Source: Lachnoclostridium sp. An169 (GTDB lineage Bacteria > Bacillota > Clostridia > Lachnospirales > Lachnospiraceae). From it: DNA of 64,000 nt. The stretch covers positions 62,001 through 126,000 of the forward strand of contig NZ_NFKT01000007.1 of NCBI RefSeq assembly GCF_002160525.1. Direction: 5' to 3'. The translations under genes were made by a program, and so were the position numbers. Positions within the stretch are counted from its first letter, which is position 1. Each line of letters starts with the position of its first letter. The notes under the pieces were generated by a model. It was not told where the DNA came from. It ran no database searches and worked only from the letters and a program-made list of their open reading frames with translations. Below are positions 25,847 through 38,308 of the stretch, in pieces.

Positions 25847-26061
25847 CTTGCTTATTTCCTCCTGCCAATATCTCCCGTAAATGAATGAGTGCATGATATA
25901 TAACCAATTAGATAAATTATATCATCATCGCGTCACAGTATCAAATTACAATATTTTTTCAGGTTCTCTATATAGACTTTTTGCGCATTTTGTCTCATTT
26001 TGGAATTTCAGCCCCGGGAAAACTGCCGGGGAAAATAATGGAAAAATAGTTTGAAAAAAAT

Positions 26062-26090
26062 TTGACGAATCCGAAGAATTCTGGTATAAT
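26062..26090 (+). promoter_or_regulatory. Strong promoter of tRNA-Cys
   Basis: TTGACG (26062-26067) and TATAAT (26085-26090) with a 17-bp spacer. The start would be about 70 bp before the tRNA; the leader contains an AGCGACC/GGTCGCT hairpin (about 26131-26152). The stretch from 25847 to 26061 holds no gene that I can see. Confidence 0.85.
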
Positions 26091-26166
26091 GCAGGAGATG
26101 TGTGAATATAATATCTATGCATCGCACGTAAGCGACCAAAAGACGGTCGCTAAGTGCTTGTAGCCA

Positions 26167-26238
26167 GGCGCAGTAGCCAAGTGGTAAGGCGTGGGTCTGC
26201 AACACCCTGATTCACCGGTTCAAATCCGGTCTGCGCCT
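26167..26238 (+). tRNA. tRNA-Cys (GCA)
   Basis: The 72-nt cloverleaf has acceptor GGCGCAG paired with CTGCGCC, a D arm GCCAAGTGGTAAGGC, anticodon loop CTGCAAC with anticodon GCA, and a T arm CCGGTTCAAATCCGG. The 3' CCA is not encoded and must be added. A promoter and a terminator flank it, so it is a single-gene unit. Confidence 0.95.
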
Positions 26239-26252
26239 CTTGCGAAAGACTT

Positions 26253-26296
26253 CCCCATAATGCTTTTTTCAAGCACTATGGGGTGTTTTTATTTTC
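26253..26296 (+). terminator. Terminator of tRNA-Cys
   Basis: CCCCATAATGCTT pairs with AGCACTATGGGG across a short T-rich loop, followed by TGTTTTTATTTT. It begins 15 bases after the tRNA 3' end. Confidence 0.9.
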
Positions 26297-26376
26297 AGAA
26301 TATCAATTGTTTTCGCTCCATTTGTTACAATAAATCGAAAAATATACATCTATATAAAAGAAAAAACAGCCCGTGT

Positions 26377-26478
26377 TCAGGGCTGATCATCTTCACGAAA
26401 AGCAACTATGTCATTTGGCGTACAGTCCAAAAGACGGCAGAGCTTTTCGAGAGTAAGTAATGTTAAACGGTATCCGTC
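26377..26478 (-). pseudogene. C-terminal remnant of a Cro/C1-type regulator
   Basis: The minus strand encodes LTLEKLCRLLDCTPNDIVAF before a TGA at 26377. This is the conserved end of small Cro/C1 helix-turn-helix proteins. A TGA lies only 13 codons upstream of this motif and no start or first half of the domain is present, so it is a truncated relic. The rest of the 26297-26669 interval has no other gene that I can support. Confidence 0.6.
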
Positions 26479-26562
26479 TCAGATTATCGTATCAGATAAA
26501 AGGAAGTGAAGAAAGAAGTGATCTGTATGTGTATCAACACGCAAAAAAGGAATAAAGCTTCT

Positions 26563-26635
26563 CTCCATGCAAAGCCAGCAGATTGCGACAATTGCATGGA
26601 GTAAAAAACAGTCGCAAAATAAAAATGCCGGCTTT
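26563..26635 (+). other. Interleaved inverted repeats (possible RNA pseudoknot) before the CD3324-like gene
   Basis: CTCCATGCAA (26563-26572) pairs with TTGCATGGAG (26592-26601). Inside its loop, AAAGCCAGCA plus TTGCGAC (26571-26589) pairs with GTCGCAA (26611-26617) and TGCCGGCTTT (26626-26635; 9 of 10). The two stems interleave, as in an H-type pseudoknot, and end 35 bases before the ATG. A function is not shown. Confidence 0.4.
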
Positions 26636-26669
26636 GCTGCCTGACTATCATATCAAGGAGGAAGCCCGC

Positions 26670-26933
26670 ATGAAATATCTTAATGCACAGGTTATTCTTC
26701 CGGAGGCATTGGTAGAAGAGCTGCAAACCTATGTCCAGGGCGGATATATCTATGTTCCTGTCAAACAGGAACAGCAAAAACACTGGGGAGAAGTTTCCGG
26801 CTATCGCCAGGAATTAGATCAGCGCAATCAACAGATAAAAGCGGAGTATCAACGTGGTATTTCCATGGAGTGTCTGTCTGAAAAATACTGCTTATCTTTA
26901 TATGCTGTCCGGAAAATTATATATCAAAAGTAA
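26670..26933 (+). CDS. Small CD3324-like putative DNA-binding protein
   Basis: An 87-residue protein resembling the CD3324 family of Clostridia: MKYLNAQVILPEALVEELQT, QGGYIYVPVK and a C-terminal helix-turn-helix-like part (SMECLSEKYCLSLYAVRKII). The C-terminal pattern suggests nucleic acid binding. Start ATG 26670 has AAGGAGG eight bases upstream; the 29-codon upstream extension crosses the inverted repeats and is unlikely. Codon use is AT-richer than the surrounding genes. Role unknown. Confidence 0.75.
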   Translation: MKYLNAQVILPEALVEELQTYVQGGYIYVPVKQEQQKHWGEVSGYRQELDQRNQQIKAEYQRGISMECLSEKYCLSLYAVRKIIYQK

Positions 26934-26937
26934 CTGT

Positions 26938-26967
26938 AAGGGGCTGCCAGGTGCAGCCTCTTATTTT
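26938..26967 (+). terminator. Terminator after the CD3324-like gene
   Basis: AAGGGGCTGC pairs with GCAGCCTCTT over a 5-nt loop, followed by ATTTTATA. Confidence 0.75.
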
Positions 26968-27078
26968 ATACCAATCATTTCGGTATTATACAGTGTATAG
27001 ACGGTCTGCCCGGATGCCTGTAAACTGATAAATATCAGAAATTTGCTTTTCCATTTGCATAACATGAAAGGAGCAGCC

Positions 27079-27699
27079 ATGCCACAGAAAATTTATCCCC
27101 GCTCAAAAGACAAAGAAACTGTTTACTTGAAAAATGTCATTAACAATCCCAGTATCATAATCGGCGATTACACAATATATAATGATTTTGTCAGGGACCC
27201 GCAAGATTTTGAGAAAAATAATGTTCTGTATCAGTACCCGATCAACCAGGACAAACTGATAATCGGTAAGTTTTGCTCGATTGCCTGCGGAGCAAAATTC
27301 CTGTTCAACAGTGCAAACCACAGCTTATCTTCGCTTTCTACCTATCCATTCCCCATTTTTTTCGAAGAGTGGGATTTGGATATAAAGGATATTAAAAAAG
27401 CGTGGGATAACAAAGGTGATATTGTTATCGGGAATGATGTCTGGATCGGTTATGAAGCAGTCATTTTAGCAGGTGTTACGATTGGAGACGGCGCTGTAAT
27501 CGGGACCCGCGCTGTTGTTACCAAAGATGTTCCTCCATATACAATCGTCGGCGGTGTTCCGGCAAAGCCTATAAGAAAGCGTTTTTCTCAGGAAACCATA
27601 GATTCTCTGCTGAAAATGAAGTGGTGGAATTGGTCAGAAGAGCTCATCCGACAGCATATAGGCGAAATACAGTCTGGAAAGCTTGACCATTTACGCTAA
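27079..27699 (+). CDS. Vat/CatB-type xenobiotic O-acetyltransferase
   Basis: A left-handed beta-helix acetyltransferase of ~206 residues. It has the hexapeptide run and family signature [20 protein letters not shown], then [20 protein letters not shown], and the catalytic-type His in NSANHSLSS. The layout closely follows streptogramin A acetyltransferases (Vat) and CatB-like enzymes, which transfer acetyl from acetyl-CoA to an antibiotic hydroxyl. Whether it confers resistance cannot be told; many chromosomal relatives act on unknown substrates. ATG 27079 is set by AAAGGAG. It lies in the AT-rich patch after tRNA-Cys. Confidence 0.85.
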
Positions 27700-27762
27700 T
27701 TTGCTGCATGACATCAAAAGAAAGTTTCATTGATTTTACGAACCTGTTTTCTCCTGTGCCCC

Positions 27763-27791
27763 TTGTCCTTTCCCTGATCCGATGGTAAAAT
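27763..27791 (+). promoter_or_regulatory. Promoter of the AAA-ATPase_like gene
   Basis: TTGTCC (27763-27768) and TAAAAT (27786-27791) with a 17-bp spacer, about 96 bp before the start codon. Confidence 0.6.
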
Positions 27792-27886
27792 CTAGGATAT
27801 AGATAAGCAACAGCAATTTACCGGTTTCCGACCTGCTGTCGAAACGGCAGATACTTTGCAGCCGGGGAAAGGAGAAGCTTGAGAAT

Positions 27887-29602
27887 ATGCCGGGGATCAT
27901 GGATAAAAAACTTCCAATCGGAATAGAAAACTTTGATGAACTTATGACAGAAGGATTTTACTATGTAGATAAGACTGGAATGATCCGGGATCTGCTGTAC
28001 AATTGGGGCAAAGTAAATCTGTTTACCCGTCCGAGGCGATTCGGTAAGTCTCTGAATATGAGCATGCTGAAGTGCTTCTTCGAGATCGGCGTAAAGAAAG
28101 AGTTATTCGATGGGCTTGCAATAGCGGAAGAGACAGAACTGTGTGAAGAATATATGGGAAAATTTCCGGTGATCTCTGTCAGCCTGAAAAGTGTAAATGG
28201 TCTTGACTACGGGACTGCCCGGGAGATGATGTGTTCTGTGATCGGCAATGAGGCCATGCGTTTCCAGTTTCTTCTTGAAAGCAACCGCCTTACAGCGAAG
28301 GAAAAGGAAATGTATAATCAGCTCACTACGATAGGGAAAGCTGATGAGGATGCTTTTATCATGTCGGACGGCATACTGATGGGCAGTCTCTATACACTTT
28401 CTTCGCTGCTGAAAAAGCATTATAACAAAAATGTGATCATTCTGATTGACGAATATGACGTACCGCTCGCAAAAGCAAATGAAGGCGGATATTACGATCA
28501 GATGGTACTGCTGATCCGTAATATATTCGAACGCGCACTTAAGACAAATGATAATCTCCACTTTGCCGTGCTGACAGGGTGCCTGCGCGTAGCCAAAGAG
28601 AGCATTTTTACCGGATTAAATAATTTTAAAGTTCTCTCCATTATGGACGTGCGTTTTAATGAATATTTCGGTTTTACAGATAAAGAGGTACTGGAACTTC
28701 TGAATTATTTTGGTCTTTCAGGACTCTACGGCACAGTAAAGGAATGGTATGATGGATACCGCTTCGGCAATGTAGACGTATATTGTCCCTGGGATGTAAT
28801 CTGCTATGTAGACAAGGCACGGCTGAATCCCGGTGCTCAGCCGGAATCTTTCTGGTCTAATACAAGTGACAACTCTGTGATCCGCCACTTTCTCGAAGAT
28901 GCGCGGTCGATTACCAAGCAGGAGATAGAGCGTCTGATCTCCGGCGAAAGCATTGTGAAAACAATCCGGCAGGAACTGACATATAAGGATATGTATGCTT
29001 CCGTGGATAATATCTGGAGCCTGCTCTTTACTACAGGATATCTGACCCAGAGAGGAGAACCGGAAGGAAACAGGATCAGACTTTCCATCCCCAACCGCGA
29101 GATCAAAAATATCTTTGAGGAACAGATAACCGAGTGGTTTCAGACCACCGCACGCAAAGACGGGACATCCCTGGACGCCTTCTGTGAGTCTTTTAAAAAT
29201 GGAGATCCTGCAGGCGCCGAAAAAAAATTCAACGAATATCTGAGCCGCACGATCAGCATCCGTGATACGGCAGTAAGAAAGGAAATGAAAGAAAACTATT
29301 TTCACGGACTTCTTCTTGGCCTGCTCAGCTATAAAGATAACTGGTATGTAGCTTCAAACAGAGAATCCGGAGACGGTTACTGTGATATTCTGATGGAGAT
29401 TGATACAGAAGAAATCGGAATCGTCATAGAAGTAAAGTATGCAGAAAACGGAGATCTTGATAAAGCGTGCCAAAAGGCGCTCTCACAGATCGAGGAACGC
29501 CATTATGAAGAACAGCTCCGCGAGGATGGAATGCAGAAGATCCTGAAATATGGCGTTGCATGTTACAGGAAAAAGTGCAGGATTATTCTAAAAGAGGAAT
29601 AG
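27887..29602 (+). CDS. AAA-ATPase_like protein with C-terminal PD-(D/E)XK domain
   Basis: A 571-residue protein of the DUF1703/AAA-ATPase_like class, common in gut Clostridia and Bacteroidetes. It has KLPIGIENFDELMTEGFYYV, Walker A as RPRRFGKS (48-55), Walker B as VIILIDEYDVPLAKAN near residue 185, and a C-terminal nuclease-like core with GDGYCDILME and GIVIEVKYAENG. Nuclease activity is inferred from fold only. It stands alone with its own promoter and terminator. It is the intact counterpart of the broken copy at 14805-16270. Its cellular role is unknown, perhaps mobile-element or defence related. Confidence 0.9.
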   Translation: MPGIMDKKLPIGIENFDELMTEGFYYVDKTGMIRDLLYNWGKVNLFTRPRRFGKSLNMSMLKCFFEIGVKKELFDGLAIAEETELCEEYMGKFPVISVSLKSVNGLDYGTAREMMCSVIGNEAMRFQFLLESNRLTAKEKEMYNQLTTIGKADEDAFIMSDGILMGSLYTLSSLLKKHYNKNVIILIDEYDVPLAKANEGGYYDQMVLLIRNIFERALKTNDNLHFAVLTGCLRVAKESIFTGLNNFKVLSIMDVRFNEYFGFTDKEVLELLNYFGLSGLYGTVKEWYDGYRFGNVDVYCPWDVICYVDKARLNPGAQPESFWSNTSDNSVIRHFLEDARSITKQEIERLISGESIVKTIRQELTYKDMYASVDNIWSLLFTTGYLTQRGEPEGNRIRLSIPNREIKNIFEEQITEWFQTTARKDGTSLDAFCESFKNGDPAGAEKKFNEYLSRTISIRDTAVRKEMKENYFHGLLLGLLSYKDNWYVASNRESGDGYCDILMEIDTEEIGIVIEVKYAENGDLDKACQKALSQIEERHYEEQLREDGMQKILKYGVACYRKKCRIILKEE

Positions 29603-29629
29603 CATATACATTTGACCTGACATCCCCCA

Positions 29630-29681
29630 AAAAATGCCGGCATACAGAAGGCAGCATCCCTCCTGCACGCCGGCACTTTTC
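29630..29681. terminator. Shared terminator between convergent genes
   Basis: AAAAAATGCCGGC pairs with GCCGGCACTTTT, with a smaller GCAG/CTGC stem inside. T-rich ends on both strands serve the AAA-ATPase_like gene and the acyl-ligase operon. Confidence 0.75.
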
Positions 29682-31190
29682 TTAAAATCTCTTGATCTTC
29701 CTTGTCGTTGTCTTCTCGAACTCTTTGTCTCTGACGATCAGGCTGTATATCTTCTTCTGCGGTGCGGCAGTGCGGTTGTACTCGTCGATAACCTCCTGCA
29801 GCTTCGCGCGCACATCTTTGATCTTTTTCTTCTTCACGTAATCCTGATCCGGATAGATCTCCGCCTCAATCACACCGTTATGTTCACGGACAAGCACCTC
29901 TCCCACCAGGCGGTTGGAGCTCAGGGCATTCTCCAGTTCCTCCGGGGAAACGTTCTCACCGTTCTTTGTGATAATCAGATTCTTCTTTCTTCCGGTCAGG
30001 TAGACGAAGCCTTCCTCATCTACGTATCCCAGATCTCCGGTTTTGAGCCAGCCGTCCTCCAGAGTTTCGGCGGTCTCCTCTGGCATCTTATAATATCCCT
30101 GCATGACGCTGCTGCCCTTCACCCAGAGCTCGCCGTCCACCGTCTTTGCCTCGCAGTTGGGCACAAGCTGTCCCACAGAATCTTTGCGGATATTCCATCT
30201 CTGGGAAATGCTGATAACCGGGGAACACTCGGTCATGCCGTAGCCCTGCTGGATCACGATGTCATATTTCCGGAACATGTCGATATACTTGGGATCCAGG
30301 TATGCGCCTCCGCTGCAGATCGTGTGGAACTGTTTGCCGAACACCTGGTTCTTCACGATCTTTGCCGGCAGGAGGGATGCCTCCTCCAGTTTCTTCGCCA
30401 TGGTCTCGATCATCAGCGGCACCATCAGGATCATCTCCGGCTTAAAGAGCTTGATATTCTTCGCCACACGCATGAGCGAATCGTTAATGCAGATCACTGC
30501 TCCCAGGGACACACCTTTTAATATGTCCATACTCAGGCAGTATGCGTGATGGATCGGAAGCACTGTCATAATGACAATGCGCTCCGGAATCTTCATATCA
30601 AGGCAGGTCGCATTCTCCGCCACATTCCGGTGGGTCAGCATAACTCCCTTGCTCTTTCCGGTCGTACCGGAAGTGAACATGATCGTGCAGAGCTGATCCG
30701 GCTGCGGCTCATAGTCAAAGCTTCCCCCATGCTCCTCAAGCAGTTTCCAGAAAGCATACGCATGATCATCGTGCGCCTCCTGCTGCATGGAAATCATGTA
30801 TTTCAACTGCGGGCAGCGCTCTTTTGCGATGGCAGCCACGTCTTTTCTCACCTCGTCATAGACAAGGACCGTGGAATCCGAACGGGCGATCAGATCGCAC
30901 ACATCCTCCGCCGGAAGGTTTACATCCAGAGGCACCACCACGCTGCCGCTGTTCACGGTGCCGAAATAGGACACAAGCCACGGATAGGAGGTCATACCGA
31001 TCACCGCGATATGATTTCCCTGCTCTCCCAGATCGGCGAGGACGCGGGAAAAGCTCTCGCTGTCTTCCTTTAACCGGGTATAAGATTTTGCTTCGATCTC
31101 ATTTTTGCTGATCTTGTAGCGGATGGCGTCCTCCGGACCGTATTTCTTCTCTGTATTTGTCAGTATCTCTCGAACTGTGCTGCAAAGCAT
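29682..31190 (-). CDS. AMP-dependent acyl-CoA/acyl-ACP synthetase
   Basis: An adenylate-forming enzyme of ~502 residues that would activate a carboxylic acid and load it on CoA or on the adjacent acyl carrier protein. Visible motifs are the ATP loop TIMFTSGTTGKSKGVMLTHR, QQGYGMTECSPVISIS, the WLKTGDLGYVDEEGFVYLTG hinge region and the C-terminal lysine segment ETTTRKIKRF. ATG 31190 has AAAGGA nine bases upstream. It is the last gene of a five-gene operon and is followed by a terminator. The acid substrate is unknown, though an ACP 25 bp upstream favours acyl-ACP formation. Confidence 0.9.
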   Translation of the reverse strand: MLCSTVREILTNTEKKYGPEDAIRYKISKNEIEAKSYTRLKEDSESFSRVLADLGEQGNHIAVIGMTSYPWLVSYFGTVNSGSVVVPLDVNLPAEDVCDLIARSDSTVLVYDEVRKDVAAIAKERCPQLKYMISMQQEAHDDHAYAFWKLLEEHGGSFDYEPQPDQLCTIMFTSGTTGKSKGVMLTHRNVAENATCLDMKIPERIVIMTVLPIHHAYCLSMDILKGVSLGAVICINDSLMRVAKNIKLFKPEMILMVPLMIETMAKKLEEASLLPAKIVKNQVFGKQFHTICSGGAYLDPKYIDMFRKYDIVIQQGYGMTECSPVISISQRWNIRKDSVGQLVPNCEAKTVDGELWVKGSSVMQGYYKMPEETAETLEDGWLKTGDLGYVDEEGFVYLTGRKKNLIITKNGENVSPEELENALSSNRLVGEVLVREHNGVIEAEIYPDQDYVKKKKIKDVRAKLQEVIDEYNRTAAPQKKIYSLIVRDKEFEKTTTRKIKRF

Positions 31191-31215
31191 ACTCCACATT
31201 CCTTTCCCGGCCGAC

Positions 31216-31443
31216 TTACGCCGTCAGTTTTTCCAGATAGTCAACCGCTTCCTGTACCGTGCGGATATTGGCAGCTTCAGTCTGCTCCACTTCCACATCG
31301 AACTCATCCTCGATCTCTCCGAGCATGCTCATGAAGTCAAAAGATGTAAATCCGAGATCTTCCATAAAACGTGATTCCGGATGAATGTTCTCCGGCTCTA
31401 CTTCCACATAGTTGCAGATAATATTTACCAATTTCTCAAACAT
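31216..31443 (-). CDS. Free-standing acyl carrier protein
   Basis: A 75-residue acidic four-helix carrier. The phosphopantetheine site is S34 in DLGFTSFDFM, which differs from the DSL of the fatty-acid ACP, so this is probably a dedicated carrier for a secondary pathway. AAAGGAG precedes the ATG. It lies between a condensation-like protein and an acyl ligase, the natural donor and acceptor pair for a tethered acyl group. A phosphopantetheinyl transferase is not in the window. Confidence 0.93.
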   Translation of the reverse strand: MFEKLVNIICNYVEVEPENIHPESRFMEDLGFTSFDFMSMLGEIEDEFDVEVEQTEAANIRTVQEAVDYLEKLTA

Positions 31444-31455
31444 GATTCTTCTCCT

Positions 31456-32862
31456 TTACACTAACTTGATGATATCTCCGATTGTCAGGTCCGGGTTCTC
31501 CGCGCCCTTGAACATGATCTTGCACAGATAGTAGTACAGATACTCCAGTTCATCCCTGGAAACCGCCTTGATCTGGTGTTCAAAGTTAAAGTCGAGTCCG
31601 TTGTCTTCCGGGCGGTGCATAACGGTCAGGTACATTGCCTGTGCGGTCATGCCGTTGGGATACCACTTCGTCTTATAGCGGATATCTCCGAGCTGATCCA
31701 GTCCTTTCTCCTTGAGTGTCAGCGGCTGGTAGGTCAGAGAGATCGGCTCATAAGTCAGGCCTGCGTGCGGCTGCGGATAGGTCTTTGACCGGTATGCAAA
31801 ATATGCCGTCGGATCATAGTTTGCATGACGGAAATACTCATTCTGCTTGTCGCGGATCGCATAGACCGCATCGATGAATTTCATATCCTCCGGGAAAATC
31901 GTGCGGAACGGGAAGGAGTGGATCCTTGTGCCGCCGGATTTCTTTTCCTTCAATGTCGCCCGTCTTGCGATCGCTGTGTTGATCGATACATCTTCGAATC
32001 CGTTCATCTTCTGGAAGTATGTGCGCAGTCCCATGAGGAGCAGACATGCCAGGGATACATGATATTTCTCGCAGAAATCCATGAGGCGTTTCGTCGGCTC
32101 CGCTTCCAGATGGAAGATATCCAGGGCAGACGTGGTATCGTCCGACGCGTTGAATGCAGTCCGGAGATTTGGGTTTTTAAACATCTTACGGGCAGCCTCC
32201 AGCTTGTCCGTTCCGTGAATACCGTTGTAAATCGGCTCGGAAGACTCGATCTCCTTCTGGAAGTATACGGTATCTCTCTGCTGCGCCCTGCTTCCCGCCT
32301 CGTATGCCAGATCTCTCTGAATCTGCTCGATGTATGAGCACATATCCTTCGGATAAGGCACACCTTCGTATTTTGCATTACAGTACAGCTCGATGATGTC
32401 TTTCAGAAAACAGATCAACGACTGGGCGTCCACGATCATGTGATGCCCCAGGAAATAAACGCCGTTGAATCCATCCGGCATTCTGATCATGACGATTCTT
32501 GTCAGCTGGGTATCTTCCAGTTTGAACGGCACTCTCGTCCACTCCGTCATCTTCGCCTCGGCTTCTTCCATGGTTCCATTGGAAAAATCAACAAACTCAA
32601 TGTCCTGATCCTCATGTTTTACAACGTACTGATAATAATTGCCCTCTTTGTCCTTTGCAAAGCGGACTCTCATTCCTTCGCTTCTCTCATATGCCTTATT
32701 GATGGATTTCTTCAGCAGATCCCAGTCCAGTTCCACCTCGATGGTCAGGCTTGTTCCGATGTTGAGCACCGCCGCGCTCGGACAGAACGGCAGGTAGTAA
32801 AGGTGGAACTTCTGTGCTACGGTCAGCGGATACACTTTGTAACCTTTTCTTGTCTTCATCAT
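31456..32862 (-). CDS. Condensation-domain-like acyltransferase
   Basis: A stand-alone 468-residue protein with the condensation/acyltransferase fold. The catalytic motif is HHMIVDA at residues 140-146 (HHxxxD), as in NRPS condensation domains and PapA/wax-ester-synthase acyltransferases. It would join an ACP-bound acyl group to an alcohol or amine. GGAGG lies nine bases before the ATG, which overlaps the hydrolase stop by 4 bp. The final residue of the motif is Ala rather than Gly. The acceptor is unknown. Confidence 0.82.
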   Translation of the reverse strand: MMKTRKGYKVYPLTVAQKFHLYYLPFCPSAAVLNIGTSLTIEVELDWDLLKKSINKAYERSEGMRVRFAKDKEGNYYQYVVKHEDQDIEFVDFSNGTMEEAEAKMTEWTRVPFKLEDTQLTRIVMIRMPDGFNGVYFLGHHMIVDAQSLICFLKDIIELYCNAKYEGVPYPKDMCSYIEQIQRDLAYEAGSRAQQRDTVYFQKEIESSEPIYNGIHGTDKLEAARKMFKNPNLRTAFNASDDTTSALDIFHLEAEPTKRLMDFCEKYHVSLACLLLMGLRTYFQKMNGFEDVSINTAIARRATLKEKKSGGTRIHSFPFRTIFPEDMKFIDAVYAIRDKQNEYFRHANYDPTAYFAYRSKTYPQPHAGLTYEPISLTYQPLTLKEKGLDQLGDIRYKTKWYPNGMTAQAMYLTVMHRPEDNGLDFNFEHQIKAVSRDELEYLYYYLCKIMFKGAENPDLTIGDIIKLV

Positions 32863-33803
32863 TTCATTATTCCTCCGATAAATGTGTCCAGGGCCCCTTC
32901 ATATGCCTCCGTATCCTTGTAGTAGCTCTCAGCGTGGCCCGCATCCTTGACAATCAGTTTCGTTTTCGGCGATGCGCAGTTTTTATAGATCTCCTCGCAC
33001 ATCCAGCAGGGAACAAAGATGTCTTTGTCTCCGTGGATAAACAGGATCGGCACTTTTGCCTTTCTTACTTCTCTGGCTGCGTTGCACTCATCCAGACCAT
33101 ACCCTGCATTTCTCCGGTTCAGCTTATCTGCGATCTGGATCATCGGAAATGCCGGAAGATGGTACATGCTGTGAAGCACGTGGGTAAACACATCCTTCGC
33201 AGAGGTGAACGCGCAGTCAGATACGATTCCCTTCACCTGTTCCGGAAGCTTAAGTCCGCTCATCATGCAGACAGTGGCGCCTCCCATGGAATTACCGTGG
33301 AGAAGGATCTGCACATCCTCTCCCGCCTCCTGAATCATCCAGCGGATCCACTCCATTCCGTCCAGCCGGTCCATGGTGCCGAAGCCGATGTAGGTTCCCT
33401 CGCTTTCTCCGTGCGCCCGCTCATCGATCAGAAGCATCCGGAAACCGTGTTTCAGGTAATACCAGGAAAGGCTGCCGTAATCATTGAGTCCCTTGCTCGT
33501 GTAGCCGTGGAAACAGATGACCGCCTTGTTTCCTCCGTCTCCTTTGAAATATGTAGCGTGGAGCTTCAGCCCGTCATGGGAAGTAATCCACACATCTTCA
33601 TGGGGCTGTTCCATCATCCAGGCGCTTCTCTCATGCATCAGCGGGAAATACTTTTCCCAGTCCACTCCGGACATCTTGATGGTCCGCTCTGTCTTCGCAT
33701 TGTAGCGCATCATGGTTCTTCTGTAGAAATATGCGGTTCCGCCGGCCTCCGCCGCTGCCGCCAGTCCGAGGAGAGCCGCCGCGCCTTTTAAAATTCTGCT
33801 CAT
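32859..33803 (-). CDS. Membrane-anchored alpha/beta hydrolase
   Basis: A 314-residue serine hydrolase. Residues ~7-27 form a hydrophobic anchor. The nucleophile elbow is GNSMGG with S172, the oxyanion side is AVICFHGYTSKG, and the acid and base are likely in HGDKDIFVP and DAGHAESYY. It may release, transfer or trim the acyl product of the operon at the membrane. Thioesterase, lipase and peptidase activities are all possible. It overlaps the condensation-like gene by 4 bp. Confidence 0.87.
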   Translation of the reverse strand: MSRILKGAAALLGLAAAAEAGGTAYFYRRTMMRYNAKTERTIKMSGVDWEKYFPLMHERSAWMMEQPHEDVWITSHDGLKLHATYFKGDGGNKAVICFHGYTSKGLNDYGSLSWYYLKHGFRMLLIDERAHGESEGTYIGFGTMDRLDGMEWIRWMIQEAGEDVQILLHGNSMGGATVCMMSGLKLPEQVKGIVSDCAFTSAKDVFTHVLHSMYHLPAFPMIQIADKLNRRNAGYGLDECNAAREVRKAKVPILFIHGDKDIFVPCWMCEEIYKNCASPKTKLIVKDAGHAESYYKDTEAYEGALDTFIGGIMK

Positions 33804-33832
33804 GCCTTCCGCCTCCGTTTCTGAGTCTTCGG

Positions 33833-34165
33833 TTATTTTCTCTTGCTCGCTATCAGCTCTTTCAGTTTCAGAGCCTTGTCAATATTTCCTTCCACTTTCA
33901 GTTTTCCAAGAGTCACTGCCAGGATCGGGTCCATCTTTCCATCTGCAATCTTGAACAGGGTCTCCGCAGAGCAGGTGAACATCGCATCTCTGTCGAAATA
34001 TTCATAAGGCTCCACAAACAGCTCGCCGTCTTTTACTTCTGCATAAAAGATGCCCTCCGCCTCGCCTGTCACATTAAACTGGTATGCCAGATGTTCATGG
34101 ATATCGCTCACATCCGCCCCCACCAGCATGCCTTTTACCTTTGAAAACATATCCGCGTACGTCAT
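33833..34165 (-). CDS. SCP2 sterol-carrier-domain protein
   Basis: A 110-residue single SCP2 domain, which forms a hydrophobic tunnel for lipids or acyl-CoA. Typical parts are YQFNVTGEAEGIFYAEV, ADGKMDPILAVTLGKLKVEG and the closing DKALKLKELI. It is the first gene of the operon, with AAAAGGAGG upstream. It would suit a shuttle for the lipid-like substrate or product of the following enzymes. Stand-alone SCP2 proteins in bacteria have few known functions. Confidence 0.88.
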   Translation of the reverse strand: MTYADMFSKVKGMLVGADVSDIHEHLAYQFNVTGEAEGIFYAEVKDGELFVEPYEYFDRDAMFTCSAETLFKIADGKMDPILAVTLGKLKVEGNIDKALKLKELIASKRK

Positions 34166-34190
34166 AAAATCCTCCTTTTCGACCTATTTC

Positions 34191-34247
34191 GACCAGTGGT
34201 CATATCGTTTACTCTGTTAGATTAACACTATTTCGACCGATGGTCAA
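34191..34247 (-). promoter_or_regulatory. Promoter of the SCP2-acyl operon with paired TetR operators
   Basis: On the minus strand TTGACC (34242-34247) and TAATCT (34219-34224) are 17 bp apart. Two near-identical dyads read TTTCGACC-N3-GGTCA on the plus strand: GACCAGTGGTC (34191-34201) lies just after the predicted start and GACCGATGGTC (34235-34245) overlaps the -35. Their centres are 44 bp apart, about four helical turns. A further half-site TTTTCGACC overlaps the SCP2 ribosome binding site. The divergent TetR protein is the obvious ligand. Confidence 0.8.
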
Positions 34248-34393
34248 TCGTCGTTCCTATCAAAAAGCGGTCCCGAAATTTTCTTTTTTTTGGCAGATTT
34301 TCTTTCTGGTTCTTTTCTGCCCGGTGTGCTATACTGTTTTATAATTTCCTGTGAAACATATTGAATCTGATACAGAAAAGAAAGGCATTAACA

Positions 34394-35005
34394 ATGGCAA
34401 ATCAACTGAAATACAACCGGATTCTGGACGCGATGCAGGAACTGCTGAAAAACCGGAGCGTACAGACCATATCCGTCAGCGAAATCGCCCACACCGCCGG
34501 GATCGGGAAAGGAAGCATCTACTATTATTTTCCTTCCAAGGACGCGATCTATGAAGCGCTTGTGGAGCGCAATTACGAGAAACCGCTTAAGACTGCGCAG
34601 AACCTTTCCTCGCAGACAGAGATCTCCCCTTTTACAAGGATGGCAATGATCTTCCAGGCCTGCCGGAATTCTTCCGCCGAATACATGAAGTCGGAAGAGG
34701 GGTCGGTCGCAGGGGCGCAGGAGGAGGCATATCTGCACCGGAAATATATCAACCACCTGATCGTTGAACTGAAGCCTGTTCTGGCTGAGATTATCCGCCA
34801 GGGAATCGACAGCGGAGAGATTCATTTTGACCGGCCGGACGCCCTTGCGGAGATTGTACTGATCGTTCTTACCATAAAGATGGACAACACCCTGATTCCA
34901 TCCTCCAAAGAAGAAATCGAGGACACCATTGCAGGCCTGATCAGCCTGCTGGAAAAAGGGACGGAGAATCCCCCGGGATCTCTGAATTTCCTGATGTCCT
35001 ACTGA
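34394..35005 (+). CDS. TetR-family transcriptional regulator
   Basis: A ~203-residue repressor with the N-terminal helix-turn-helix (ISVSEIAHTAGIGKGSIYYY) and an all-helical ligand domain. ATG 34394 follows AAAGG; the longer frame starts before it. TGCTATACT (extended -10) near 34327-34337 may be its promoter. It is divergent from the SCP2/acyl-ligase operon and the two operator-like dyads in the shared interval lie over the operon promoter, so it most likely represses that operon until an acyl or lipid effector binds. Confidence 0.9.
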   Translation: MANQLKYNRILDAMQELLKNRSVQTISVSEIAHTAGIGKGSIYYYFPSKDAIYEALVERNYEKPLKTAQNLSSQTEISPFTRMAMIFQACRNSSAEYMKSEEGSVAGAQEEAYLHRKYINHLIVELKPVLAEIIRQGIDSGEIHFDRPDALAEIVLIVLTIKMDNTLIPSSKEEIEDTIAGLISLLEKGTENPPGSLNFLMSY

Positions 35006-35103
35006 CCTTTGACGGGTCTTCTGGAGCCCTGGCGCCAGACAGCAGATCCGCTGCGGGGAATTATAAAATTTTTATGCATACCGGAGATTCCATCCCGCGG
35101 CAC

Positions 35104-35132
35104 TTGACAGAGAACCTTTTTTATGCTAATTT
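35104..35132 (+). promoter_or_regulatory. Promoter of lon
   Basis: TTGACA (35104-35109) and TAATTT (35127-35132), 17-bp spacer, with a TG two bases before the -10. The start would be near 35139, placing the CIRCE element in the 5' leader. Confidence 0.7.
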
Positions 35133-35135
35133 TCT

Positions 35136-35170
35136 TATAGCGAATAACTGGGCTTATTCGCTATATTTTT
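35136..35170 (+). other. 12-bp inverted repeat at the lon transcription start
   Basis: TATAGCGAATAA and TTATTCGCTATA flank CTGGGC, followed by TTTTT. It may be the terminator of the TetR gene, a stabilising 5' hairpin of the lon mRNA, or an operator. Its place between the lon promoter and CIRCE makes read-through termination (attenuation) conceivable. Confidence 0.6.
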
Positions 35171-35179
35171 ACAGATGTC

Positions 35180-35206
35180 TTAGCACTCGTTTTTGTCGAG
35201 TGCTGA
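35180..35206 (+). promoter_or_regulatory. CIRCE element (HrcA operator) upstream of lon
   Basis: TTAGCACTC-N9-GAGTGCTGA matches the CIRCE consensus (TTAGCACTC-N9-GAGTGCTAA) in 17 of 18 positions with the exact 9-bp spacer. It lies 54 bp before the lon start codon. HrcA normally controls groESL and dnaK, so lon would join the class I heat-shock regulon here. Confidence 0.92.
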
Positions 35207-35260
35207 TAAAAGCAGGTCAGCAAACCTGAACAAATATAAAAGGAAGGAGAATGAGCTACG

Positions 35261-37531
35261 ATGATTGTACGTCCCATTTATAATATACTGCTCCTCCCGG
35301 ATGTATCCTATTACTTCCGGAAAGAGTTTTTTGCCGATTTTGCCGAAGAGCCGATCGAGGCAGGCACGCAGATCCTTTTTGTATTTCTGAAGCATGAGAT
35401 AAATGAAGGCACGGAGATCAGCCCGGACGATCTCTGCCCGGTGGGTATCTCCGCACGGGTCGAAGCTCCGGGCGAGGAAGATACCATCCAGGTGCGCACG
35501 CTGGAGCGGATCGATATTACAGGCGCATCTGTAGAGAACGGCCAGCTCACCGCAGAGACTTCCATTCGTCCCGAAGTTGAGGATATCTCTGAAGAGGAAG
35601 AAAAAGAGCTCTTTAACCGGCTGAGAGCTGCCCTGCTCAAATTCGTCCAGGGTTACCAGTGGGGTCTCTGGGCGCGCGGCTTCATCCTCCAGAGGAAGAA
35701 TATATATGATATGGCTTCCGCGCTCTCGGATTATCTGAACTTAACCGCGGAGGAAAAATATGCCATTATCGCCGCAGATTCCCGGCGTGAGCGCTGTACT
35801 CTGATCGAGAAAGCCATCAGCGAATTTATGGAGGTGGCGCGTGTCTCCGAAGAAGCGCAGGAAGCACAGAAAGGCGATCAGGAACAGCTCTACCGGGAAG
35901 CTGCCATCAAAAAGCAGATCGATTACCTGCAGAGGGAACTGGATGAGATGCACCCGGAAAATATTTCCGATGTCCGCAGATTCGAGAAGAAGATCGAAGA
36001 ATCCGGCATGAACAAAGAAGCACGCCGGGAAGCGGAGAAAGTGCTCAACCGCATGCGCCAGGAAGGAAGCGAGAGCCATGAGTACGGACTGCTCTACGAC
36101 TATCTGGACTTTGTTACCAGCCTGTCCTGGAAGGCTCCGGAATTTACGCCCATTGATCTGGAAAAGGCTGAGAAGATTCTGGATGAAGACCATTACGGGC
36201 TGAAGAAAGTAAAGGAACGAATCATCCAGCAGCTTGCAGTCATGGCTCTGAACCGCAAACAGTACGGCTCCATCCTGCTCTTTGTGGGAGCTCCCGGCAC
36301 AGGCAAAACCAGTATCGGACAGAGCATCGCCCGGGCGCTGGGGAGAGAATATGTGCGGATCAGCCTGGGCGGCGTCCGGGATGAGGCGGAGATCCGCGGA
36401 CACCGGCGCACCTATATCGGCGCAATGCCCGGAAGGATCATGGAGGGAATGAAGCGCAGCGGCGTTTCCAATCCGGTTATGGTCCTTGACGAGGTGGACA
36501 AGCTCGCCAAGGATTACGGCGGAGATCCGGCAAGTGCACTGCTCGAAGTGCTTGACCCGGAACAGAACAGCACATTCACAGATCACTATATGAACGTGCC
36601 ATATGATCTCTCCAACGTCCTTTTCGTCTGCACGGCAAACACCACGGATACCATCCCGGAACCTCTCCTGAACCGTATGGAGGTCATCAATTTCCCGGGA
36701 TACACCGCTGTGGAGAAATACCATATTGCAAAGAAGCACCTGCTGCCCCGCGCCATGGACACCATGGGAATCAAAAAGGGAATGCTGAAAGTCAGCGACA
36801 GCGCGCTGAAAAAAATCATTGCCGAATATACCATGGAAGCGGGCGTCCGGGATCTGAAAAAGCAGATCGATACGCTCTGCCGCACCGCTGCCGTGAAGCT
36901 GGTGAAAAAAGAAGGGGCAGTTCTTTCCATCACGAAGAATAACGTAGCAGATTACCTGGGAAGGAGACAGCTCCACCACGACCAGAAACTGGAGTCCGCC
37001 ACGCCGGGCGTCGTAACCGGACTCGCCTGGACAAGAGCCGGAGGAGAGATCCTCTTTATCGAGAGCAAGCTGACAAACGGAAAGGGCAATGTGCTCATCA
37101 CCGGACAGCTCGGCGACGTGATGAAGGAATCTGTACAGATTGCCTTAAGCCTTGTCAAGTCACTCTATCCGGAGGAGAGCAAAGTCTTTGCGGATCATGA
37201 CCTGCATATCCACGTGCCTGCCGGAGCCGTTCCGAAAGATGGTCCGTCCGCCGGCATCACGCTGACCACTGCGCTTGCCTCCCTAGTCACCGGGAAGGCT
37301 GTCAGCCCGGAGTATGCCATGACCGGCGAGGTTTCCCTGCGGGGAGGAGTCATGCCCATCGGAGGACTGCCGGAGAAACTGATGGCAGCCCAGAGGGCAG
37401 GCATCACAAAAGTACTGATTCCCGCGGATAATGTAGAGGATCTGGAAGATGTGGCGGATGAGGTGAAAGAGAAGCTGGAGATCATCCCGGTGAAGAAAGT
37501 CACCGAGGTGCTGAAAAAAGTGCTGAAGTAA
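35261..37531 (+). CDS. lon: ATP-dependent Lon protease
   Basis: Cytoplasmic AAA+ protease that degrades misfolded and regulatory proteins. Order: N-terminal substrate domain (~1-190), coiled helices (~195-300), AAA module with Walker A GAPGTGKTS (343-351) and Walker B VMVLDEVDK (~406-414), then the Ser-Lys protease domain. The catalytic pair is S663 (PKDGPSAG) and K706 (GGLPEK), 43 residues apart as in E. coli Lon. At 756 residues it is near the usual bacterial length. The ribosome binding site AAGGAG is rather far (about 12 bases) from the ATG. A CIRCE element lies upstream. Confidence 0.97.
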   Translation: MIVRPIYNILLLPDVSYYFRKEFFADFAEEPIEAGTQILFVFLKHEINEGTEISPDDLCPVGISARVEAPGEEDTIQVRTLERIDITGASVENGQLTAETSIRPEVEDISEEEEKELFNRLRAALLKFVQGYQWGLWARGFILQRKNIYDMASALSDYLNLTAEEKYAIIAADSRRERCTLIEKAISEFMEVARVSEEAQEAQKGDQEQLYREAAIKKQIDYLQRELDEMHPENISDVRRFEKKIEESGMNKEARREAEKVLNRMRQEGSESHEYGLLYDYLDFVTSLSWKAPEFTPIDLEKAEKILDEDHYGLKKVKERIIQQLAVMALNRKQYGSILLFVGAPGTGKTSIGQSIARALGREYVRISLGGVRDEAEIRGHRRTYIGAMPGRIMEGMKRSGVSNPVMVLDEVDKLAKDYGGDPASALLEVLDPEQNSTFTDHYMNVPYDLSNVLFVCTANTTDTIPEPLLNRMEVINFPGYTAVEKYHIAKKHLLPRAMDTMGIKKGMLKVSDSALKKIIAEYTMEAGVRDLKKQIDTLCRTAAVKLVKKEGAVLSITKNNVADYLGRRQLHHDQKLESATPGVVTGLAWTRAGGEILFIESKLTNGKGNVLITGQLGDVMKESVQIALSLVKSLYPEESKVFADHDLHIHVPAGAVPKDGPSAGITLTTALASLVTGKAVSPEYAMTGEVSLRGGVMPIGGLPEKLMAAQRAGITKVLIPADNVEDLEDVADEVKEKLEIIPVKKVTEVLKKVLK

Positions 37532-37555
37532 GCAGTAAAAAAACGGATTATACAG

Positions 37556-37583
37556 GGAGCCGCACTGATATCAGTGCGGCTCC
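37556..37583. terminator. 28-bp perfect palindrome between lon and the ABC operon
   Basis: The 28 bases at 37556-37583 are fully self-complementary, centred on GATATC. They cover the last codons and stop of the convergent ABC ATPase gene. A run of seven T follows on the minus strand about 12 bases later. Probably a bidirectional terminator. Confidence 0.6.
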
Positions 37584-38308
37584 TCCTCTGTTCCCGTCAG
37601 TTCCCGGACAAAATCATCCGCCGGGTGGCTCCGGATCATCTCCGGCGTATCCAGCTGGGCGATCCTGCCCTGTTCCATGACGAGCACCCGGTTTCCCAGA
37701 CGCATTGCCTCCCGGATATCATGAGTGATAAACACGATCGTCATCTGCAGTTTTTTCTGAAGATTGAGGACTTCCTTCTGCATGGACCGCTTCGTGATCT
37801 CGTCCAGAGCGCCGAACGGTTCATCCATAAGCAGAAGCTTTGTCTCTGCCGCCAGTGCCCTGGCAATCCCTACTCTCTGCTGCTGCCCGCCGGAAAGCTC
37901 CGACGGATAGCGGTCGAGCATGGACGCGTCAAGTCCTACCAGTTCCAGAAGGCGGAGCGCCGTCTGACGGTTTTCTTTTTTGTTCTTTTTCCCGCTGATA
38001 ACCGGAACGTAAGTAATGTTCTTCTCCACAGTCATGTGGGGGAACAGCCCCTTGTTCTGGATCACATATCCGATCCTGCGGCGCAGGGCGGTCAGATCCG
38101 TACTTCCGACCTCTTCCCCTTCCACATACACCTTCCCGGAGTCCGGCATTTCCAGACCGTTGATCATCTTCAGCATGGTGGTCTTTCCGCAGCCGGAGCG
38201 CCCGATCACCGTAAGGATCTCTCCCTCGTTTACCGCAAGGGAAAAATCGTCAAGCACTCTCTGATCCCCGAAGGATTTTGTCACATGTTCAAATCGAATG
38301 ATTTCCAT
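37571..38308 (-). CDS. Osmoprotectant (glycine betaine/choline) ABC transporter ATPase
   Basis: Energy subunit of an OpuC/OsmV-like importer. Walker A GRSGCGKTT, signature LSGGQQQRVGIARAL and Walker B LLLMDEPFGALD are intact. At 245 residues it lacks the C-terminal CBS pair that senses ionic strength in OpuCA/OpuAA, so osmotic gating may be missing or lie elsewhere. It is the last gene after the binding protein and permease on the same strand. The substrate class is inferred from the partners. Confidence 0.88.
   Translation of the reverse strand: MEIIRFEHVTKSFGDQRVLDDFSLAVNEGEILTVIGRSGCGKTTMLKMINGLEMPDSGKVYVEGEEVGSTDLTALRRRIGYVIQNKGLFPHMTVEKNITYVPVISGKKNKKENRQTALRLLELVGLDASMLDRYPSELSGGQQQRVGIARALAAETKLLLMDEPFGALDEITKRSMQKEVLNLQKKLQMTIVFITHDIREAMRLGNRVLVMEQGRIAQLDTPEMIRSHPADDFVRELTGTEEEPH

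Follow-up and report, generated by a model that had tools for sequence, protein, structure and literature searches.

A conserved Lachnospiraceae operon joining a putative fatty-acid-amide core to SCP2, hydrolase and TetR genes

The operon and its flanking features

The window analysed here is a 64,000-nt stretch of the genome of Lachnoclostridium sp. An169 (contig NZ_NFKT01000007.1 of GCF_002160525.1, positions 62,001–126,000), in which the genes for an SCP2-fold lipid carrier, an alpha/beta hydrolase, a condensation-type protein, an acyl carrier protein (ACP) and an AMP-forming acyl ligase make up one operon. An earlier note, made from the sequence alone, had described five tightly linked genes at 29682..34247 and read them as an undescribed, minimal acyl-transfer pathway of a gut Clostridium, the last of these being a loose label for what is a member of the Lachnospiraceae. 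All five open reading frames (ORFs) were recovered where that note had placed them, co-directional on the minus strand and separated, from the SCP2 gene to the ligase gene, by 29, −4, 12 and 16 bases, and each of the five proteins passed its Pfam cut-off, which bears out the identities that had been proposed. The HHxxxD-type and FTSFD motifs named for the condensation-like enzyme and the ACP are likewise present in the translations, as HHMIVDA and DLGFTSFD. The features of the locus are:

34394..35005, plus strand: divergent TetR-family repressor (PF00440, 45.8 bits; ATG at 34394, listed ORF starting from TTG at 34361)
34235..34245: candidate TetR operator 1 (GACC-N3-GGTC), overlapping the −35 box, within TTGACCATCGGTCGAA on the minus strand
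34219..34247, minus strand: likely operon promoter, read from the sequence as TTGACC (34247–34242), 17 nt and TAATCT (34224–34219)
34191..34201: candidate TetR operator 2, 44 bp from operator 1 and downstream of the −10 box
33833..34165, minus strand: SCP2-fold lipid carrier of 110 aa, the operon's first gene (PF02036, 49.2 bits, cut-off 21.3)
32859..33803, minus strand: alpha/beta hydrolase with an N-terminal hydrophobic helix (Abhydrolase_1, 56.3 bits)
31456..32862, minus strand: stand-alone condensation-type protein, a putative N-acyltransferase (PF00668, 129.3 bits; HHMIVDA at residues 140–146)
31216..31443, minus strand: free ACP of 75 aa (PF00550, 49.2 bits; pantetheine serine S34 in DLGFTSFD)
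29682..31199, minus strand: fatty-acyl ligase (AMP-forming), predicted to load the ACP (PF00501, 207.5 bits; PF23562, 26 bits)
29629..29681, minus strand: terminator-like hairpin with a 23-pair stem, directly after the ligase stop codon

The ACP serine S34 is at least 98% conserved in 123 rows, and so are the ligase motifs TSGTTG and GYGMTE in 102 rows. Profile searches of the draft genome gave one Condensation match (PF00668), one SCP2 match and one AcpS-type transferase; since the Condensation match is single, no further condensation (C) domain of a nonribosomal peptide synthetase (NRPS) was found there, in agreement with the earlier statement that no NRPS module is present.

The span given in the earlier note ends at 34247, where the likely −35 box begins, and the intergenic DNA around it is where the control of the operon appears to lie. 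We compared 120 TetR–SCP2 intergenic regions, 95 of them distinct, and found an exact GACC-N3-GGTC in 92 of the 95, against 0.1 in mononucleotide shuffles; at control gap lengths of 0–8 other than N3 it was found in no region, except in three at gap 5. When up to one mismatch was allowed, exactly two sites were counted in 89 of the 95 regions, three sites in 3 and one site in 3, with the two operators spaced by 44 bp 76 times and by 43 bp 15 times. TTGACCnnnGGTC recurs in 47 of the 95 regions, and TTGACC followed by a 17-nt spacer and TAnnnT was counted 42 times. The presence of a TetR_N domain together with a conserved inverted repeat between divergent genes is what would be expected of a repressor acting on a local operator, and the TetR protein looks like a dedicated local repressor of this kind. 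It is this gene and its paired operators that the description of the pathway as minimal had missed.

Within the draft genome, the extended pattern TTGACCNNNGGTCGAA (up to one mismatch) has three matches, two of which are the window's operators and one a single site elsewhere; only operator 1 of the window's two sites is exact, and a reversed control pattern has seven matches. Since the reversed control is the commoner (seven vs. three), the genome-wide count alone is no evidence, and the case for the operators rests on conservation across species and not on the count in a single genome. A wide TetR regulon in this genome was considered and is unsupported by the same counts. The proposed promoter was not listed by a general promoter scan, which found 4 promoters vs. 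5.0 expected and hence no excess. The hairpin has an energy of −38.8 kcal/mol (z −6.57 vs. 200 shuffles); it was not listed by a terminator scan restricted to loops of 3–8 and bound by the scan's own rules, which found 3 vs. 4.4 expected.

Kinship and spread of the core and its frame

The condensation protein matched PDB entry 12KH, which is OaaC, the fatty-acid-amide (FAA) synthase of Coprococcus eutactus, over residues 9–467 with 385.9 bits (E = 2.5e-114), while the next PDB entry reached 37.6 bits. The two proteins are identical in 187 of 461 columns (41%) along their full length, and a helix region of OaaC that is absent from the modular C domain compared aligns with the window protein without gaps. 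According to the main text of PMC13142362, OaaC produces FAAs in vitro when given acyl-ACP and a free amine, coupling oleoyl-ACP with aminovaleric acid, and works in an NRPS-like system made up of three free-standing proteins; for the finding of several clusters of this type in gut Clostridia, the same text cites Chang et al. 2021. A second main text (PMC13060934) describes a three-gene 'CTA' operon in 36 Lachnospiraceae species, including B. wexlerae, and reports that acyl amines were higher in cultures of carriers than of non-carriers and that amines rescued the growth of B. wexlerae in fatty acid.

The window has several of the features by which an FAA (CTA) operon can be recognised: a free-standing condensation protein, an ACP and an acyl ligase encoded together; a single PF00668 match in the whole draft genome, with no acceptor carrier or NRPS module; likeness to OaaC over the full length, helix region included; and, instead of HHxxxDG, a (D/H)HxxxD motif in which S or A is usually the next residue. 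Because of the match to OaaC and the published CTA operon, the ligase–ACP–condensation core is, as far as sequence kinship can tell, of an already known kind, the FAA ('CTA') pathway of gut Clostridia (PMC13142362, PMC13060934), and the label 'undescribed' falls away for this part.

Motif usage nonetheless separates the window's relatives from OaaC. Clade counts given here refer to rows with at least 51% identity to the window's condensation protein, which number 124 and hold 115 distinct condensation sequences, the window included. Of HHxxxD, the second His and the Asp do not vary in any of these 124 rows, and all 124 carry xHxxxDA, while the first residue is variable (D 66, H 28, N 24, Q 4, S 2). 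DS takes the place of DA in 7/7 rows at 41–51% identity and in 17/19 rows at 30–41%; for OaaC the motif is given as (D/H)HxxxDS, the last place being S in 42%, A in 36% and G in 17% of 127 FAA sequences (main text of PMC13142362). In a tree of 81 rows, OaaC and 18 other rows formed one clade (100/100) and the window fell in a separate 50-row clade (94/94), both apart from two modular NRPS domains, where the outgroups were few and the outer rows carried a warning of false joining by long branches. Three OaaC-side condensation proteins, at loci L065, L066 and L068, are 32–34% identical to the window's and carry the motif DHRIMDS, and one genome (G149) holds both a window-type operon (L076) and an OaaC-side protein (L066).

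A condensation-protein match was found in 60 of 397 Lachnospiraceae genomes (E up to 1e-20), with 61 matches in all, of which 39 were at 52% identity or more (one of them, in G237, a 253-residue fragment), 16 at 32–38% and 6 at 23–28%; a search at class level gave matches in 20 of 391 genomes (E up to 1e-40). Within the window's genus, the condensation protein occurs in 41 and SCP2 in 43 of 58 genomes. Every carrier of the former has the latter, and SCP2 occurs without the condensation protein in G435 and G439, lying close to a contig start in G439.

Counted per distinct condensation sequence of the clade (115), the hydrolase is present in 115, the ACP in 114, SCP2 in 110, the ligase in 98 and TetR in 89. 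The exception for the ACP is the fragmentary locus of G237 (L081). As for the ligase, each of the 17 remaining loci shows a partial match that is cut short where the fetched DNA ends, and among the 98 ligase-positive loci L156 was scored on a ligase-like gene elsewhere in the locus, its own ligase being cut off. Two of the loci that lack SCP2 (L158 and L080) offer less than 1 kb of upstream DNA, as do all but seven of the 26 that lack TetR. Outside the clade, SCP2 and TetR were not found by BLAST with the window proteins as query in any of 30 rows, three of which (L205, L054 and L062) have less than 2 kb upstream. Four f20 and two f53 loci (C protein at 44–48%) show the order hydrolase-C-ACP-ligase, as does the f43 locus L196 (C at 54%); in L204, a further f20 locus, and in four f14 loci the set consists of C-ACP-ligase alone.

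The full order TetR-SCP2-hydrolase-C-ACP-ligase, with TetR divergent, was found in 73 of 80 named relatives, and a divergent TetR in 75 of the 80; these 80 are the best of 542 and all at least 73% identical, a set biased to close kin and uninformative on distant clades. The earlier note had named a lack of joint conservation in relatives as one refutation of its reading, and on this test the operon survives; a chance neighbourhood, which we considered as an explanation of the linkage, was rejected on the same count. Judged by these gene counts, the SCP2-hydrolase-TetR frame is a conserved addition to the three-gene core in the window's clade.

Beyond the hairpin, the next gene (27887–29602, plus strand) encodes an AAA-ATPase-like protein with a PDDEXK_9 nuclease domain, followed outwards by a hexapeptide-repeat acyltransferase (PF00132) at 27043–27699, which is presumably akin to acetyltransferases of the kind that act on drugs. 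A tRNA gene at 26167–26238 (RF00005, 64.5 bits) is the only Rfam match above the gathering score in 26000–38000. On the other flank, a Lon protease gene (35261–37531) directly follows the TetR gene.

The SCP2 and hydrolase genes and a cholesterol-responsive relative

The structural model of the window's SCP2 protein (pLDDT 86.9) matched SCP2 folds and alkylsulfatases, among the former mosquito SCP2 with a C16 fatty acid bound (1pz4), and profile and predicted fold together would place it in a lipid-binding family. In the hydrolase, S172, D261 and H290 are at least 98% conserved in 124 rows and are likely the catalytic triad. Its model (pLDDT 84.0, below 50 in residues 1–14) had the esterase Pf2001 as top fold match (23% identity), and the 50 fold matches listed also include feruloyl esterases and monoacylglycerol lipases. 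A type II thioesterase was considered and set aside, as PF00975, the thioesterase profile, was not among the 7 families that matched (E up to 0.001), led by Abhydrolase_1 and Hydrolase_4.

As to the earlier description of this enzyme as membrane-anchored, an N-terminal hydrophobic stretch is present (maximum mean hydropathy 1.52 over 17 residues), and the helix modelled there (2–30) lies in the low-confidence part. The more positive flank comes after the stretch in 113 of 119 rows, and by the positive-inside rule, under which positively charged flanks tend to stay in the cytoplasm, the catalytic domain would be cytoplasmic.

The first gene of the operon has a counterpart in a study of a different subject. 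RS03310, an SCP2-like protein of Blautia hominis HA2291, rises with cholesterol in cultures, as checked by quantitative PCR, and was reported to bind cholesterol and to form NADH, a signal that two altered forms lost; the condensation protein RS03300 was predicted to be its partner (main text of PMC13029680). The same source names 12 residue positions for RS03310. All 12 are present in one SCP2 protein of 116 rows (L194), the next rows having 10 and 9, and this protein heads a TetR-SCP2-hydrolase-C-ACP-ligase operon in a genome assigned to the same GTDB genus as Blautia sp. An81. The tags 03300 and 03310 are two steps of five apart and would leave room for one gene (03305), which fits the hydrolase. 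By its residues, RS03310 looks like the first gene of such an operon. The window's own SCP2 matches at 5 of the 12 positions, which is also the score seen most often among the 116 rows, so that conservation of the operon does not extend to the pocket named for RS03310.

The main text of PMC13029680 treats RS03310 as a cholesterol gene and makes no mention of an operon, a gene cluster, N-acyl products or fatty acid amides, and the main texts of PMC13142362 and PMC13060934 make no mention of SCP2, sterols, a hydrolase or the SCP2-hydrolase-TetR frame. A literature search joining SCP2 with FAA or condensation terms returned PMC13029680, with no further link among the matches listed.

What the operon may do

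We consider it probable that the operon is under TetR control and serves to capture fatty acids in the form of N-acyl amines, that is, as FAAs. This view draws on the kinship to OaaC, the shared type of motif, the conserved core, the AcpS-type transferase and the single C domain, on the conserved six-gene order, the operators and the hairpin, and on the acyl amines of core carriers and the rescue of B. wexlerae by amines published in PMC13060934. The ligase would activate a free fatty acid with ATP and load it onto the pantetheine arm of the small ACP, from which the condensation protein would transfer the acyl group to a small, freely diffusing amine without the help of a second carrier protein; for the window's proteins these steps are predicted by homology, in keeping with the earlier suggestion that a single operon encodes the activation of an acid, its loading onto the ACP and its transfer by a free-standing condensation enzyme. 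The hydrolase, probably bound to the membrane, would supply the fatty acid by cleaving acyl esters, and SCP2 probably ferries acyl chains or the amide product between the membrane and the enzymes. TetR would sit on the two operators over the promoter and would probably be released when fatty acid or an acyl thioester accumulates. What the computation establishes is the gene set, its joint conservation, the kinship of the condensation protein to OaaC, the conserved operator-like pair and the hairpin; the substrate, product and inducer, the binding of TetR and the roles of SCP2 and the hydrolase we infer.

With the OaaA-OaaACP-OaaC set of Coprococcus eutactus, the window shares a free-standing ligase, ACP and condensation protein, the lack of an acceptor carrier protein, and the full-length likeness (41% identity) and (D/H)HxxxD(S/A) motif of OaaC; it differs in its separate clade, in having DA rather than DS, and in adding SCP2, the hydrolase and TetR with paired operator-like sites. 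The likeness to the CTA operon is one of gene sets, namely a core of three genes in which that for the ACP lies between those for C and A, in Lachnospiraceae; the main text of PMC13060934 reports acyl amines measured in live cultures and is without SCP2, hydrolase and TetR, all three of which the window has.

Several observations weigh against assigning amide synthesis to the locus. OaaC, the enzyme assayed for amide formation, sits outside the window's clade, which differs from it by DA vs. DS and by a variable first motif residue. The three OaaC-side proteins with DHRIMDS have no ACP or ligase match within the fetched 14 kb, and may use carriers encoded elsewhere or catalyse another reaction. 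No solved structure is close to the hydrolase, the best being the 23% of Pf2001, and the hydrolases beside OaaC-side C genes (30–35%), which lie upstream in L053, L056, L057 and L060 and downstream and convergent in L059, are without RAHGxS...GFG and do not clearly belong to the same subfamily. TetR is only weakly like fatty-acid regulators (FadR model 40.7 bits, cut-off 200). In G435, an SCP2 gene of the operon type (L212:4586–4963) stands among other genes without an adjacent operon. SCP2 is truly absent from L168, L091 and L196, with more than 5 kb upstream searched, and TetR from L167, L169, L091, L092, L075, L196 and L079, with more than 4 kb upstream; these absences indicate that neither is essential to the core.

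The separate clade, the DA motif and the variable first residue could be read as signs that the same machinery acylates an alcohol, lysolipid, bile acid or sterol, giving an undescribed acyl ester or conjugate, and SCP2 and the probably membrane-bound hydrolase do suggest hydrophobic partners; we think this unlikely, since the core, the kind of motif and the extra helix region are as in OaaC, which uses a small amine. A more specific form, in which a distinct pathway cleaves host or dietary lipids, carries the products on SCP2 and captures them on a bulky hydrophobic acceptor (sterol, bile acid or lysolipid), seems to us quite unlikely, and were it true, the cholesterol effect in Blautia hominis would be its first glimpse. 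The operon might also serve mainly to detoxify fatty acids or maintain membrane lipids, the product being incidental. This fits with the weak likeness of TetR to FadR and with the rescue of B. wexlerae by amines (main text of PMC13060934), and is compatible with amide chemistry; none of the five genes was assigned by Pfam to desaturation, export or beta-oxidation, and we hold this as a tentative possibility.

A sterol pathway, in which SCP2 binds or oxidises cholesterol, as proposed for RS03310, and the other genes modify the sterol, can draw on the cholesterol response, binding and NADH formation of RS03310, on its predicted link to the condensation protein RS03300 (main text of PMC13029680) and on the 12/12 residues of the operon-heading SCP2 of L194. 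We regard it as very improbable. The RS03310 protein was refolded, with an activity of 5.7 nmol/min/mg and a stated dissociation constant of 0.56 mg/mL (main text of PMC13029680), which by our own arithmetic is ~1.4 mM. Its model was stated there to be 63% identical to rabbit SCP2 (1C44), to which the window's SCP2 is 29% identical in the fold search. In addition to having only 5 of the 12 residues, the window's SCP2 showed no recognisable NAD-binding domain, either by Pfam, which gave SCP2 and a sub-threshold alkylsulfatase C-terminal match, or among the 50 fold matches listed, and no oxidoreductase was found by Pfam among the five operon genes.

As far as the FAA main texts go, the novelty lies in the SCP2-hydrolase-TetR frame, conserved along with a pair of operators, and in the connection with the cholesterol study. 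FAAs of gut Clostridia act on human receptors (abstract of PMC13142362), and for this reason it matters how large the gene family is and how it is controlled; in many Lachnospiraceae, a conserved version that includes lipid-handling genes and is apparently switchable provides a testable rule for when amides would be made. The operon also joins the FAA work, which concerns its last three genes, with the cholesterol study of what appears to be its first, two bodies of work whose main texts are silent about each other. If SCP2 serves amide synthesis, the cholesterol claim would need to be re-examined.

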